A stretch of 44,656 nucleotides of DNA from an uncultured Lentisphaerota bacterium (GTDB lineage Bacteria > Verrucomicrobiota > Kiritimatiellia > RFP12 > UBA1067), in NCBI GenBank assembly GCA_900320225.1, contig ONRL01000004.1:1-44656 (forward strand). The letters are read 5' to 3'. The position numbers were made by a program, and so were the translations under genes. The notes under the pieces were generated by a model that saw only the letters and a program-made list of their open reading frames with translations, was not told where the DNA came from and did no database searches. This document shows, piece by piece, positions 2,451-19,559 of this stretch; the stretch's first letter is position 1; each line of letters starts with the position of its first letter.

Positions 2451-4160
2451 CTACTTCCTGCGCTGGGAGAAGAACCAGTCGAGCACGGCGGCATCGGAGT
2501 AGGCGGCGTCCCAGCAGTTGTGTCCCACGCCCGGATACTCGCGGTAGCGCACGTTGCCGTCGCATTCCCAGAGTGCCGAGACCATCTGACGCGAACGCCT
2601 GACCGGCACGGCCTTGTCGCAGTCTCCGTGGAAGGCCCAGATGGGCACGTCGCGCATGACGTGCGCCAGCGCCGGGTCGCCGCCGCCGCACAGCGGCATC
2701 GCCGCCGCGAAGAGGTTGGGGTATCTCTGCACGATGTCCCATGTTCCGTATCCGCCCATCGAAAGTCCCGTCACGTAGACGCGACGTTCGTCCACGGGAC
2801 ACTCCTTGAGCGTCTTGTCCAGGAGTTCCAGAACGAGCTTCATCGACTCGGACGGGCCCTTGGGCATCTTATGGGACGACGCGTCCCATGGCGTTTCCAC
2901 CCATCTCTTGCCCTTGGGGCACTGCGGCGCGATGAGGTAGCCGTCAATTTTCTTCTCCTTCATGTAGGAGAGGATCGGCCACACGCCGTGGACCTGCTGC
3001 AGGACGTTGTCGTCGCCGCGCTCGCCCGCGCCGTGCAGGAAAAGCACGAGCGGATAACGCCACCCCTGCTCAAGATTGGCCGGCGCGTGGAAACGGTAGC
3101 CGAGCGTCGCGCCGTTCGTGCTGGCATAGGTCCGCGCCTCCGTGAGCGCGGAGGCGTTGCGCACGGACGGAAGCGACCCGCGCGCCATCAGCTCGTCGAC
3201 GATCGCGCCGACCTCCGCCTTGGGCGTCTTGACGGTGAGCACGTAGTGGTTCCCGTTCGGGTCGGGCGTCCAGGCGTTCTTGCCCTTCGCGTCCACGATG
3301 TCGAACCGGCCGCGCACCGTGCCGAAGTAGCGCTCCCAGCCGCGCACGGCCGCGAGCACGGTCACCTCGTCCCATGCCGGATGGCCCTTCTCCGTCTCCT
3401 TGTACGCCGTGAGGGCGCGCTTGAACACGTCGCGCACCGGGTTGACGGGCATCCGCTTCTTCGAGACGGGCACGCCGCATTTCACCTCCACGCCGTAGCA
3501 CCAGTCGAGGAAGTAAATGGGGGTGGGCCAGTCGCGGAACGCGATCTTGGACGACGCGCCGTCCTCCTTCGAGTTGTACTCGTACCCGTCGGGGTAGCGG
3601 CACGCCATCGCGTACCAGGCCTTCACCTTCTTCGCCACGAGCGCGCGTCCGTCGAGCGGCGAGAAGGCGTCGCCCTTCGTCTCCAGCAGACGGCGGAGGT
3701 TGGTGGTGAAGCCCACGGAGCAGATGGTCACGCTGCCGTCCGGCTGCGCGGCGAGGATCCTGCGATAGGTCTCGTTCGCGTCGGGCGCGGCGTCGCTCGT
3801 GGGATGCTTCACCACGTCCTTGTTGGCCTTCACCATGTCCGCGTAGATGTCGTAGATGGCATGCTTCCAGCCGAGCGGGCCGAGGCCCAGCTCCCGGTTC
3901 GCGCCCACCGGGATGTCGGGACGGCCGTAGTAGGCGTTGATGATCTCGACCATGCCGACCGCCGGCGTGCCGCGCGTGGAGGCGACGGTGCCGAGGATCT
4001 CGCACTCGCCCGCGTCGGCGAGCGCATGGAGCGTGGCAAGCGCGCCCACGTCGTCGAAATCCGTGTACATGTCGGTGTCGAAGATGATCTTCTCCGGCGC
4101 GCCGAACGCAATCCAGGCGGCGCATGCGGCCGCCACAAAAACGAAGTGTCTTGTTTTCAT
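2451..4160 (-). CDS. Secreted nucleoside-hydrolase-like / esterase fusion protein
   Basis: A 569-residue protein. MKTRHFVFVAAACAAWIAFG is a signal peptide, so I use the ATG at 4160 rather than the in-frame one at 4184. Residues 24-320 resemble the inosine-uridine nucleoside hydrolase fold: IIFDTDMYTDFDDVGAL holds the Asp-rich metal/ribose-binding motif (classical DTDPGxDDA), followed by TVASTRGTPAVG and ICSVGFTTNLRRLL. Residues 345-569 are an alpha/beta-hydrolase of the LpqC/feruloyl-esterase/PHB-depolymerase type: LVLFLHGAGERG is the oxyanion strand, with Ser467 in GLSMGG, Asp515 in HGDCDKAVP and His547 in GVGHNCW as a full triad. The first half is paralogous to the stand-alone gene at 18362-19444. 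Substrates are not clear from sequence; deacylation plus glycoside or nucleoside cleavage of an extracellular compound is inferred. It is transcribed alone from a promoter touching its start codon. Confidence 0.85.
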   Translation of the reverse strand: MKTRHFVFVAAACAAWIAFGAPEKIIFDTDMYTDFDDVGALATLHALADAGECEILGTVASTRGTPAVGMVEIINAYYGRPDIPVGANRELGLGPLGWKHAIYDIYADMVKANKDVVKHPTSDAAPDANETYRRILAAQPDGSVTICSVGFTTNLRRLLETKGDAFSPLDGRALVAKKVKAWYAMACRYPDGYEYNSKEDGASSKIAFRDWPTPIYFLDWCYGVEVKCGVPVSKKRMPVNPVRDVFKRALTAYKETEKGHPAWDEVTVLAAVRGWERYFGTVRGRFDIVDAKGKNAWTPDPNGNHYVLTVKTPKAEVGAIVDELMARGSLPSVRNASALTEARTYASTNGATLGYRFHAPANLEQGWRYPLVLFLHGAGERGDDNVLQQVHGVWPILSYMKEKKIDGYLIAPQCPKGKRWVETPWDASSHKMPKGPSESMKLVLELLDKTLKECPVDERRVYVTGLSMGGYGTWDIVQRYPNLFAAAMPLCGGGDPALAHVMRDVPIWAFHGDCDKAVPVRRSRQMVSALWECDGNVRYREYPGVGHNCWDAAYSDAAVLDWFFSQRRK

Positions 4161-4166
4161 GCGGTA

Positions 4167-4175
4167 AGTATACCA
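4167..4175 (-). promoter_or_regulatory. Extended -10 (TGG-TATACT) for a leaderless start at 4160
   Basis: The minus strand reads AAAATGTGG-TATACT-TACCGC-ATG. The -10 hexamer ends only 6 bases before the ATG, so transcription should begin at or beside the start codon. There is no Shine-Dalgarno site. The same AAATGTGGTATACT block occurs before the gene starting at 5308. Confidence 0.6.
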
Positions 4176-4203
4176 CATTTTCACCTCGTCCGGCGTCCCC
4201 TTT

Positions 4204-17331: not shown

Positions 17332-18321
17332 TCAACCCTGCCGGGCGCCGCCGAGGACTTTCCGCCGAAGGCGGTCCGCAAGGCTGTCGGCCCAGTTGAA
17401 GATGCCCGCAAGCAGCGCGCCCGAGATGGAATGCCACACGCACGAGACGGCCGACGCGATCGCCGCCTCGGGCATCGTCGGGAAGTGCTTGCCCGCCAGC
17501 ACCGTCGCGAGACCCGCGTTCTGCATGCCCACCTCGATCGAGACCGTGCGCCGCTTCGCCCGCGTGAAGCGTGCAAGCATCCCGCTCGCGTACCCCAGCA
17601 CGTAGCCGAGCGCGTTGTGGCAGAACACCGCCACGAAGACGATCACGCCCGACTGCGCGAACTTCTGTCCGTGCGCCGACACCACGCCCCCCACGATGCA
17701 CGCGAGTCCCGCCACCGCCACGCCCGGCAGGACCTTCTTCACCTCGCCGAACCCCGTGCGTGTCCCGAACGCCGTGTTCAGCACGAACCCCAGCGCGACG
17801 GGCAGGATCGTCACGAAGAGAATGGACGTGAACATGCCCACCGCGTCCACATCCACGCTCTCCCGCGCAAGCCACAGCATGAGAAACGGCGTCATGACGG
17901 GCGCCGCGAGCGTCGAGACCGTGGTGAGGCCCACCGAGAACGCCACGTCGCCCTTGCAGAGAAAACTCATGATGTTCGACGACACGCCGCCCGGGCAGCA
18001 CCCCACGAGGATCAACCCCACCCCCACCTCCTTCGGCAACCCCAGCCCGTGCACGAGCCCGTAGGCGATGAGCGGCATGAGCGTGAACTGCGCGAGCGAT
18101 CCGACCACGATGTCGAAGGGACGCGACGCGAGGGCGCGGAAGTCCTCGCCCGTGAGCGTGAGCCCCATCGTGAGCATGATGAGGCCCAGCAGGGAGGTCT
18201 GCGCGTTCCCGCGCACCCAACCGAACACGCCCGGCGCAAAATACGCCGCCACCGCCGCCAGCGTCACCACGGCCGGCGTCCACTTGGCCATGAAAGCCGC
18301 AAGTTTCTGAAGGAATTTCAT
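17332..18321 (-). CDS. BASS-family (bile acid:Na+ symporter) transporter
   Basis: A 329-residue polytopic membrane protein (about 9-10 segments) with a GGGAGG ribosome site before ATG 18321. Diagnostic stretches are LIMLTMGLTLTGEDF near helix 2, LVGCCPGGVSSNIMSFLCKG (the conserved GCCPGG.(A/S)SN sodium-site motif), TTVSTLAAPVMTPFLM and RRTVSIEVGMQNAGLATVLA (the E..MQN..L motif, second sodium site). Bacterial members (ASBT-like, PanS, YocS) import organic anions with sodium. Being 40 bases after a secreted nucleoside-hydrolase-like gene, it may import that enzyme's product, but the substrate cannot be read from sequence. Confidence 0.9.
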   Translation of the reverse strand: MKFLQKLAAFMAKWTPAVVTLAAVAAYFAPGVFGWVRGNAQTSLLGLIMLTMGLTLTGEDFRALASRPFDIVVGSLAQFTLMPLIAYGLVHGLGLPKEVGVGLILVGCCPGGVSSNIMSFLCKGDVAFSVGLTTVSTLAAPVMTPFLMLWLARESVDVDAVGMFTSILFVTILPVALGFVLNTAFGTRTGFGEVKKVLPGVAVAGLACIVGGVVSAHGQKFAQSGVIVFVAVFCHNALGYVLGYASGMLARFTRAKRRTVSIEVGMQNAGLATVLAGKHFPTMPEAAIASAVSCVWHSISGALLAGIFNWADSLADRLRRKVLGGARQG

Positions 18322-18361
18322 AAGCCCTCCCGCTTGAACCAGGTCGCGCGGAGATCGGCGC

Positions 18362-19444
18362 TTAGCGCCCATGGGCGGGTTTGCGGCAGATTAGCTCGTC
18401 GATCACGCGGCCCACCTCGGCCTTTGGCACCTTTTCGGTCACGCGCAGGTGCGGGCCATCCTCCATCGGCGCCCACTCGTTCGTACCGTCGGTTCCCACC
18501 ATGCTGTAGCGACCGCGGCTCACGTTGAAGTAGCGTTCCGCTCCGCGCACGGCGATCAGCACGGCCGTCTCGTCCCACGCGCTGCGCCCGCCCATGCCGT
18601 ACGCGCCGCGCAGCCACTTGGCCGGGTCCTTGCGGATTTCCTCGCGCGACGGAATGTTGCCCGCGAAGACGTCCTTCACGGGGTTGCGCGGGCCCTCCAT
18701 TTCGGCGATCGCGCGTCCGGCGAACACGTCGATGCCCATGTTCCAGTCCGTGAACACGATCGGCGTGGGCCAGTTGTCGAGCGCGATGCGCGAAGACTCC
18801 CAGTCCATCATCGAGTTGTATTCCTTTCCATGGAAATACCTGCACGCCATCGCCACCCAGCACTTCACCTTCTTCGCCACGAGCGCCCGTCCGTCGAGGG
18901 GCGAGTACTGGTCGCCTTTCGTCTCGAGGAGACGGCGGAGGTTCGTGAGGAAGCCCGTGGAGCAGATCACCACGCTGCCGTCCGGCTGCGCGGCGAGCAC
19001 CTTGCGGTAGACCTCGTTCGCGTCCGGCGCGTCGTCCGCGTCGGCGTACGTGTACCAGCCGGGGTAGTCGGCAAGCAGCTTGCGGTACTTGTAGTGTCCG
19101 CCGTCGCCGCCGGTCTTGTCGCCGAGCGGCGCGCCGGGATGAACCTTCTCCTTCGCGCGTGCGTGGGCCCCCAGCACGCCGATGCCCTTCGGTGCGCCCA
19201 CCGGCAGGTTGCCGCGCCCGTAGTAGGAGTTGATCACCTGCACGGCGCCCACGGAGGCGTTGCCGCGCGTGCTGCTGACGGTGGCGAGGATCTCCGCCTC
19301 GCCGGCGTCCGCGAGCGCGTGGAGACACGCGAGCGCGCCCACGTCGTCGAAATCCGTGAGCATGTCGGTATCGAAGATCACCTTCACCGGCGCCGCCCAG
19401 GCGAGGGCGGGCGCAAGCGAAAGGGCGAGAATCAGCTTTCTCAT
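18362..19444 (-). CDS. Secreted nucleoside-hydrolase-like protein
   Basis: A 360-residue protein starting at ATG 19444 with an AGGAG site 8 bases upstream. MRKLILALSLAPALAWA is a signal peptide. VKVIFDTDMLTDFDDVGALA is the Asp-cluster start shared with inosine-uridine nucleoside hydrolases; TVSSTRGNASVGAVQVINSY, ICSTGFLTNLRRLLETKGD and PLDGRALVAKKVKCWVAMAC match the first half of the fusion protein at 2451-4160 almost block for block. The canonical DTDPGxDDA loop is altered to DTDMxTDFDD, so activity on ribonucleosides is uncertain. Extracellular release of a sugar or base for the transporter encoded next is inferred. Confidence 0.85.
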   Translation of the reverse strand: MRKLILALSLAPALAWAAPVKVIFDTDMLTDFDDVGALACLHALADAGEAEILATVSSTRGNASVGAVQVINSYYGRGNLPVGAPKGIGVLGAHARAKEKVHPGAPLGDKTGGDGGHYKYRKLLADYPGWYTYADADDAPDANEVYRKVLAAQPDGSVVICSTGFLTNLRRLLETKGDQYSPLDGRALVAKKVKCWVAMACRYFHGKEYNSMMDWESSRIALDNWPTPIVFTDWNMGIDVFAGRAIAEMEGPRNPVKDVFAGNIPSREEIRKDPAKWLRGAYGMGGRSAWDETAVLIAVRGAERYFNVSRGRYSMVGTDGTNEWAPMEDGPHLRVTEKVPKAEVGRVIDELICRKPAHGR

Positions 19445-19503
19445 GTCATTTCTCCTGTCTTGTGGCTGCGTCTCCGGAACACTTCCCCGACGACGGCACG
19501 AAT

Positions 19504-19512
19504 AGTGTAGCA
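19504..19512 (-). promoter_or_regulatory. Extended -10 (TGC-TACACT) for the operon starting at 19444
   Basis: The minus strand reads TGC-TACACT; transcription from about 19497 leaves a leader of roughly 50 bases with an AGGAG site. It is divergent from the promoter at 19560-19589. Confidence 0.5.
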
Positions 19513-19559
19513 CAAATCTTCCTCGCACGAAACGAAAAGCTCATCCCCGGTATCGCGTC

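Follow-up and report, generated by a model that had tools for sequence, protein, structure and literature searches.

Gene and domain architecture

The window analyzed here, a stretch of 44,656 nucleotides from an uncultured Lentisphaerota bacterium (contig ONRL01000004.1 of the 351-contig assembly GCA_900320225.1), contains a gene whose predicted product joins a nucleoside hydrolase (NH)-fold domain to an esterase behind a putative signal peptide. The gene is a single open reading frame (ORF) on the minus strand at positions 2451 to 4160 (ATG at 4160, stop codon at 2453 to 2451) and encodes 569 amino acids (aa). An earlier reading of the letters alone (here, the sequence-only reading) had placed the gene correctly and left its strand unstated; the signal peptide, the DTDMYTDFDD motif in the first half, and the Ser467/Asp515/His547 triad that it had noted were all found again, at the sites given below.

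The N terminus, MKTRHFVFVAAACAAWIAFGAPE, looks by eye like a Sec signal peptide, putatively residues 1 to 23 or slightly fewer (4092 to 4160, minus strand), and the structural model has a helix at residues 2 to 18. The NH-fold domain spans residues ~22 to 329 (3174 to 4097, minus strand), as delimited by PF01156, the fold match, the residue counts, and the end of shared DNA near 3174. IU_nuc_hydro (PF01156) matches residues 25 to 291 at 37.6 bits (cut-off, 34.2), and no other NH-like family was matched at E ≤ 1 in the profile search of the 569-aa protein. A junction and linker with low predicted local distance difference test (pLDDT) values, residues ~330 to 349 (3114 to 3173, minus strand), leads into the alpha/beta-hydrolase esterase at residues ~350 to 569 plus the stop codon (2451 to 3113, minus strand). 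The esterase half scored 39.8 bits with Abhydrolase_2 (cut-off, 23) and 39.0 bits with Peptidase_S9 (cut-off, 22.6). Its best PDB match is 3doh (E, 8.6e-51), which we take to come from Thermotoga, and it is also similar to the C-terminal domain of LC-Est1 (3wyd; E, 6e-33); both matches cover the whole domain with the triad aligned. The match to 3doh begins at chain residue 154, whereas the region before the esterase in the window protein has the NH fold.

The AlphaFold2 model, for which 55 window and locus sequences served as input, had a mean pLDDT of 91 and a predicted template modeling score of 0.63. Since the latter is modest and the pLDDT falls below 50 at linker residues 333 to 340 and 349 to 365, the relative placing of the NH and esterase domains is uncertain, while each domain is modeled with confidence. 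In VIA-align, residues ~20 to 331 matched most nucleoside hydrolases with Z scores of 27 to 29.5, and Foldseek concurred; the top row was a purine-preferring NH (Z, 29.5; root mean square deviation [rmsd], 2.8; 283 aligned residues), with others tied within 1. Residues 355 to 567 matched 3doh with a Z score of 28.1 (41% identity to 3doh_B over 204 residues). The profile matches of both domains and the confident model rule out a chance reading frame. Each half is also known as a complete stand-alone protein, the NH domain at 18362 to 19528 (minus strand; an unfused paralogue at 58% identity) and the esterase at locus L038 (270 aa).

Conservation of the two active sites

The NH relatives come from metagenome-assembled genomes of gut Kiritimatiellae, mostly from ruminant gut where a source is given. 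Among 106 unique NH frames, cores shorter than 230 aa were dropped, leaving 98 for residue counts. The predicted metal- and sugar-binding residues of the window protein (D30, D36, D37, T153, E194, N196, W263, and D264) lie within 3174 to 4097 on the minus strand. All 38 aligned NH domains carry T29, D30, D36, D37, N196, and D264 without exception, and in the wider set D30, N196, and D264 occur in 98/98, E194 in 96/98, and T153 in 84/98, with Ser in 9 more. The leaving-group slot before the last Asp, taken by His, Trp, or Cys, is filled by W263 (97/98). Loss of the metal-binding aspartates, which the sequence-only reading had named as evidence that would count against it, was not seen at the sequence level.

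Two features depart from classical nucleosidases. The aspartate motif DTDMYTDFDD (residues 28 to 37; 4050 to 4079, minus strand) has the form DxDxxxDxDD, two residues longer than the classical DxDxxxDD, so that the classical fingerprint is absent. In addition, the loop bearing Asn160 (N169 of RihA in the alignment), which we take to be part of the 5'-hydroxyl pocket, is gone in 97 of the 98 domains, and the gap appears in profile alignments as well. Profile and fold place the protein in the NH fold family; with neither the classical fingerprint nor this loop of the pocket, it is at most a putative nucleosidase.

The esterase half contains GxSxGG and the triad, and S467 (in GLSMGG), D515, and H547, together with G465, G469, and G470, are invariant in 19/19 esterase domains. 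The NH half showed ratios of nonsynonymous to synonymous substitution rates of 0.14 to 0.26 in 5/5 comparisons spanning partner exchanges, which rules out that it is decayed.

Fusion partners of the NH module

A search of 114 family genomes at E ≤ 1e-90 found the exact fusion in one. NH halves 83 to 86% identical to that of the window protein, within the genus or family, are joined to other C-terminal partners: GxDLY plus GDSL_3 in genome G004 and, in G005 and G006, a domain that had no match in Pfam, NCBIfam, or PDB searches and that is presumably ceramidase-like, a name given by eye. Further C-terminal partners of NH frames are RGL11 with or without DUF6807, GH43, CE15-like, AXE1, GH29, GH106, and ADP_ribosyl_GH, and N-terminal partners are GH2, GH36, GH27, GH28, tannase/feruloyl esterase, PgpA, and a permease. 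The partner in L131 carries no family name, and the PgpA-NH frame in L144, of which a second example was not seen, may be a chance open frame. Most partners are plant cell wall enzymes, including rhamnogalacturonan lyase (RGL11) and alpha-rhamnosidase, and several target pectin or rhamnogalacturonan. Divergent NH domains are fused to 5'-nucleotidase, BNR, and Ig domains, and relatives of the window esterase are also joined to Peptidase_C26, GH28, and GH29. Our literature search, to which most subscription journals were out of reach, found no paper on these NH fusions.

Two further architectures were observed. In the genome of the window, L055 (G000:C286:8500-11432) encodes a GH27 alpha-galactosidase with NPCBM and a C-terminal NH part that is split between two frames close to the end of the contig. 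L030, L031, and L032 combine a divergent NH domain (motif DTDIGSSTDD) with a 5'-nucleotidase, assigned by Pfam on L030 and by similarity in the other two, and are likely two-step nucleotide-degrading enzymes.

A quick tree was built from 86 of the 98 NH domains, after removal of those below 40% identity or unlabeled and cut off; it carries a long-branch warning at the join of the GH106 rows to the rest. Partner labels required 22 changes on this tree (minimum possible, 17; shuffled mean, 39.1) and the fused or unfused state 15, with 46/86 rows labeled as lacking a partner. In the clade of the window protein, 12/12 rows are C-terminally fused (GH106, 5; GDSL, 4; ceramidase-like, 2; the window esterase, 1), and its inner seven rows suggest that GDSL was the earlier partner, with the ceramidase-like domain and the alpha/beta esterase acquired later. 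As a length control, we counted open frames (not proven genes, and with the weakest GDSL_3 rows excluded) at least 250 codons above the typical length; among the rows listed there were 46/137 for NH, 31/133 for GDSL_3, and 20/150 for GH29. The lineage is fusion-prone in general, and the NH family is more so.

Exchange of partners

DNA shared with G004 starts 21 bases upstream of the start codon, and DNA shared with the sister genomes runs to about codon 329, ending near 3174; the window junction coincides with the NH boundary in those genomes. In six loci compared at the DNA level (L087, L140, L061, L062, L063, and L064), the flanks are unrelated and the NH stretch alone is common to the window, which rules out replacement of the partner in place between shared flanks. 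The genome of the window holds the G005/G006 partner as an unfused gene with its own signal-peptide-like start (88% protein and ~89% DNA identity), and both halves of the G005 fusion have ~88 to 89% identical counterparts there at two separate sites. This free-standing partner indicates that the NH module moves between genes. The signal peptide of the G005/G006 partner was most likely replaced by the NH module in that line, and because the relative in L038 is a free-standing 270-aa frame, the window esterase was likely joined in the same way. We regard the domain architecture, the conservation of residues, the purifying selection, and the repeated exchange of partners as established.

Of 22 loci scanned, four have a tRNA gene next to the fused NH gene. 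A tRNA-Thr gene lies directly before the NH fusion in L140 (4342 to 4416) and L061 (683 to 757), which are near-copies, a tRNA-Leu gene at the 3' end in L087 (6450 to 6531), and a tRNA-Met gene right after the frame in L135 (6862 to 6938). In the genome of the window, a tRNA-Ser gene (L219:1339-1432) adjoins the free ceramidase-like gene. These neighbors may point to insertion at tRNA genes.

Association with a permease

In 22/80 loci, tblastn identified a RhaT/GlcU-like permease near or fused to the NH domain; one of these is a 50-residue fragment, one lies downstream of NH, and seven are in frame with it (L110, L103, L077, L104, L119, L079, and L127). The permeases scored 46 bits with TIGR00776, far under its cut-off, and 71 bits with Ureide_permease, above the cut-off. 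An alignment of 21 permeases showed 10 hydrophobic segments, with ~14.7 versus 4.6 Lys and Arg residues per protein in the alternate sets of loops; it supersedes an earlier per-protein count that gave 8 to 10 segments in both orientations. By the positive-inside rule, these charges place both permease ends, and hence the fused NH domain, on the outer face, which supports a periplasmic or secreted NH domain that hands on a sugar. Clustering of the neighboring genes returned mostly frames of, or antisense to, the NH gene and was dropped.

Comparison with described NH-fold proteins

The sequence-only reading had held that nucleoside hydrolases are usually cytoplasmic and single-domain. This was too strong: according to a review, bacilli have an NH in the exosporium, and Sde_0182 of Saccharophagus degradans is a multidomain NH-like protein (PMC8910321). 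Like the window protein, Sde_0182 carries its NH-fold domain in a multidomain protein tied to carbohydrate use; the domain is reported to be inactive on nucleosides and is a proposed furanose-interacting module (PMC8910321). In the window protein, by contrast, the NH domain is fused to an enzyme.

The purine-specific/IG nucleoside hydrolases (group II/hybrid) resemble the window NH domain in fold (Z, 27 to 29), in the Ca-site residues, and in the Trp before the last Asp, but the window protein differs in the two-residue motif insertion, the missing Asn160 loop, the signal peptide, and the esterase, at 14 to 20% identity.

HopQ1 has the aspartate motif DxxxDxDD, and its description reports that no nucleosidase activity was found (PMC3608555). 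That motif is contained in the window motif, as D30xxxD34xD36D37, and the XopQ structure matches the window NH domain (Z, 28.7; rmsd, 2.5). However, HopQ1 is listed with A263 and Y383 where the window protein has E194 and W263 (PMC3608555), and XopQ is described as being without leaving-group residues (PMC8910321), whereas W263 is present here. HopQ1/XopQ are injected proteins, in contrast to the window protein with its Sec signal peptide seen by eye.

Proposed function and alternatives

We favor, with a little less than even confidence, a secreted two-module hydrolase of gut Kiritimatiellae, in which the NH module would cleave the glycosidic bond of a plant sugar or a nonstandard riboside and the second module would be an esterase. 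The N-terminal module retains the NH fold and the Ca- and cis-diol-binding residues, but its aspartate motif is altered and the loop on the 5' side is deleted; it is probably a Ca-dependent glycosidase-type module that is no longer a classical nucleosidase. Its target would most likely be the glycosidic linkage of a sugar residue from plants, or of a riboside that is not a standard nucleoside, while the C-terminal esterase would deacylate that residue or a neighboring one; acylated plant glycans or glycosides would be the substrates. Bringing its own putative signal peptide, the NH module has been joined to one secreted enzyme after another, in the window protein to an esterase. The plant cell wall partners, the sugar symporter, and the altered NH site favor as the substrate a plant glycoside or riboside rather than free nucleosides; NH catalysis, the NH substrate, and the co-operation of both domains we infer. 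The sequence-only reading is partly supported: a secreted enzyme of two domains, each with its catalytic set intact, agrees with the evidence. Of its two proposals, the altered hydrolase without action on nucleosides is strengthened by the HopQ1-like motif and the missing Asn160 loop, although with W263, as in purine-specific enzymes, nucleosidase activity may persist.

Several observations weigh against a two-module plant glycoside hydrolase. True nucleosidases have as leaving-group residues both W263 and a His that is common in the beta3-alpha3 loop. A 5'-nucleotidase is attached to NH in a divergent clade, consistent with nucleosides, and one NH domain is joined to an ADP-ribosylglycohydrolase-type domain. 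Sde_0182, the closest precedent described, is reported to be inactive on nucleosides and is a proposed sugar binder (PMC8910321). Long frames are also common in other families, so that fusion need not imply co-operation of the domains.

The first alternative is an ordinary secreted Trp-type purine nucleosidase that would use the nucleosides of digested cells and is joined to an unrelated esterase, with the ribose taken up by the symporter seen in relatives. W263, in 97/98 domains, occupies the slot of the Trp that stacks on purines in group II enzymes (PMC8910321); the top VIA-align row is purine preferring, if tied within 1 with others, divergent relatives carry 5'-nucleotidase, and the TIGR00776 symporter family covers sugars. 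The altered aspartate motif, the missing Asn160 loop, and the dominance of plant polysaccharide enzymes among the partners make this explanation rather unlikely. A noncatalytic sugar-binding module that holds its partner enzyme on the substrate would agree with the attachment of NH at either end of many carbohydrate enzymes and with what is proposed for Sde_0182 (PMC8910321), but it is improbable given the conservation of the entire catalytic set and the leaving-group residue, the 46/86 tree rows without a fusion partner, and the ~20/80 loci with NH near or fused to a symporter. That the fusion is functionally meaningless in a lineage prone to fusions, or an error of assembly, we consider more doubtful still: the exact fusion occurs in a single family genome, relatives of the esterase have other fusion partners, and over-long frames are found in GDSL_3 and GH29 as well, yet such frames are more frequent for NH, the NH boundary at which the junction lies is that of the sister genomes, the triad and metal residues are intact, and the surrounding clade is fused in every row.

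The preferred two-module hydrolase hints that the old NH fold has a second job in plant material breakdown. In a bolder and unlikely version, the fold would have turned into a Ca-dependent glycosidase for 2,3-cis-diol plant cell wall sugars (for example, apiose, or rhamnose in rhamnogalacturonan), which would be a new glycoside hydrolase family that serves as a swappable, signal-peptide-bearing front module of secreted enzymes and as an outer-face symporter domain. Multidomain proteins with an NH-fold domain have posed a question ever since Sde_0182 was reported to be inactive on nucleosides, and the many natural fusions with partners of known substrate allow the substrate of the NH module to be guessed and tested. 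They also show that secreted enzymes within one genus have recently exchanged an entire N-terminal module of catalytic type. Were the module a plain nucleosidase, the shuffling would be equally clear but of less interest.

Neighboring genes and upstream region

The gene is flanked by a CotH-like gene on one side and by an ORF without a Pfam match on the other, and for this reason the substrate could not be read from its neighbors in the window. The bile acid/pantothenate-type symporter gene at 17332 to 18372 (minus strand), a type that was not found in the 80 NH loci, overlaps the unfused NH paralogue by 11 bases. The promoter scan upstream of the window gene gave no match; a -10-like box (TATACT; TATAAT in L087) ends <10 bases before the start codon, within 4160 to 4180 of the window, resembling the arrangement of a leaderless message.
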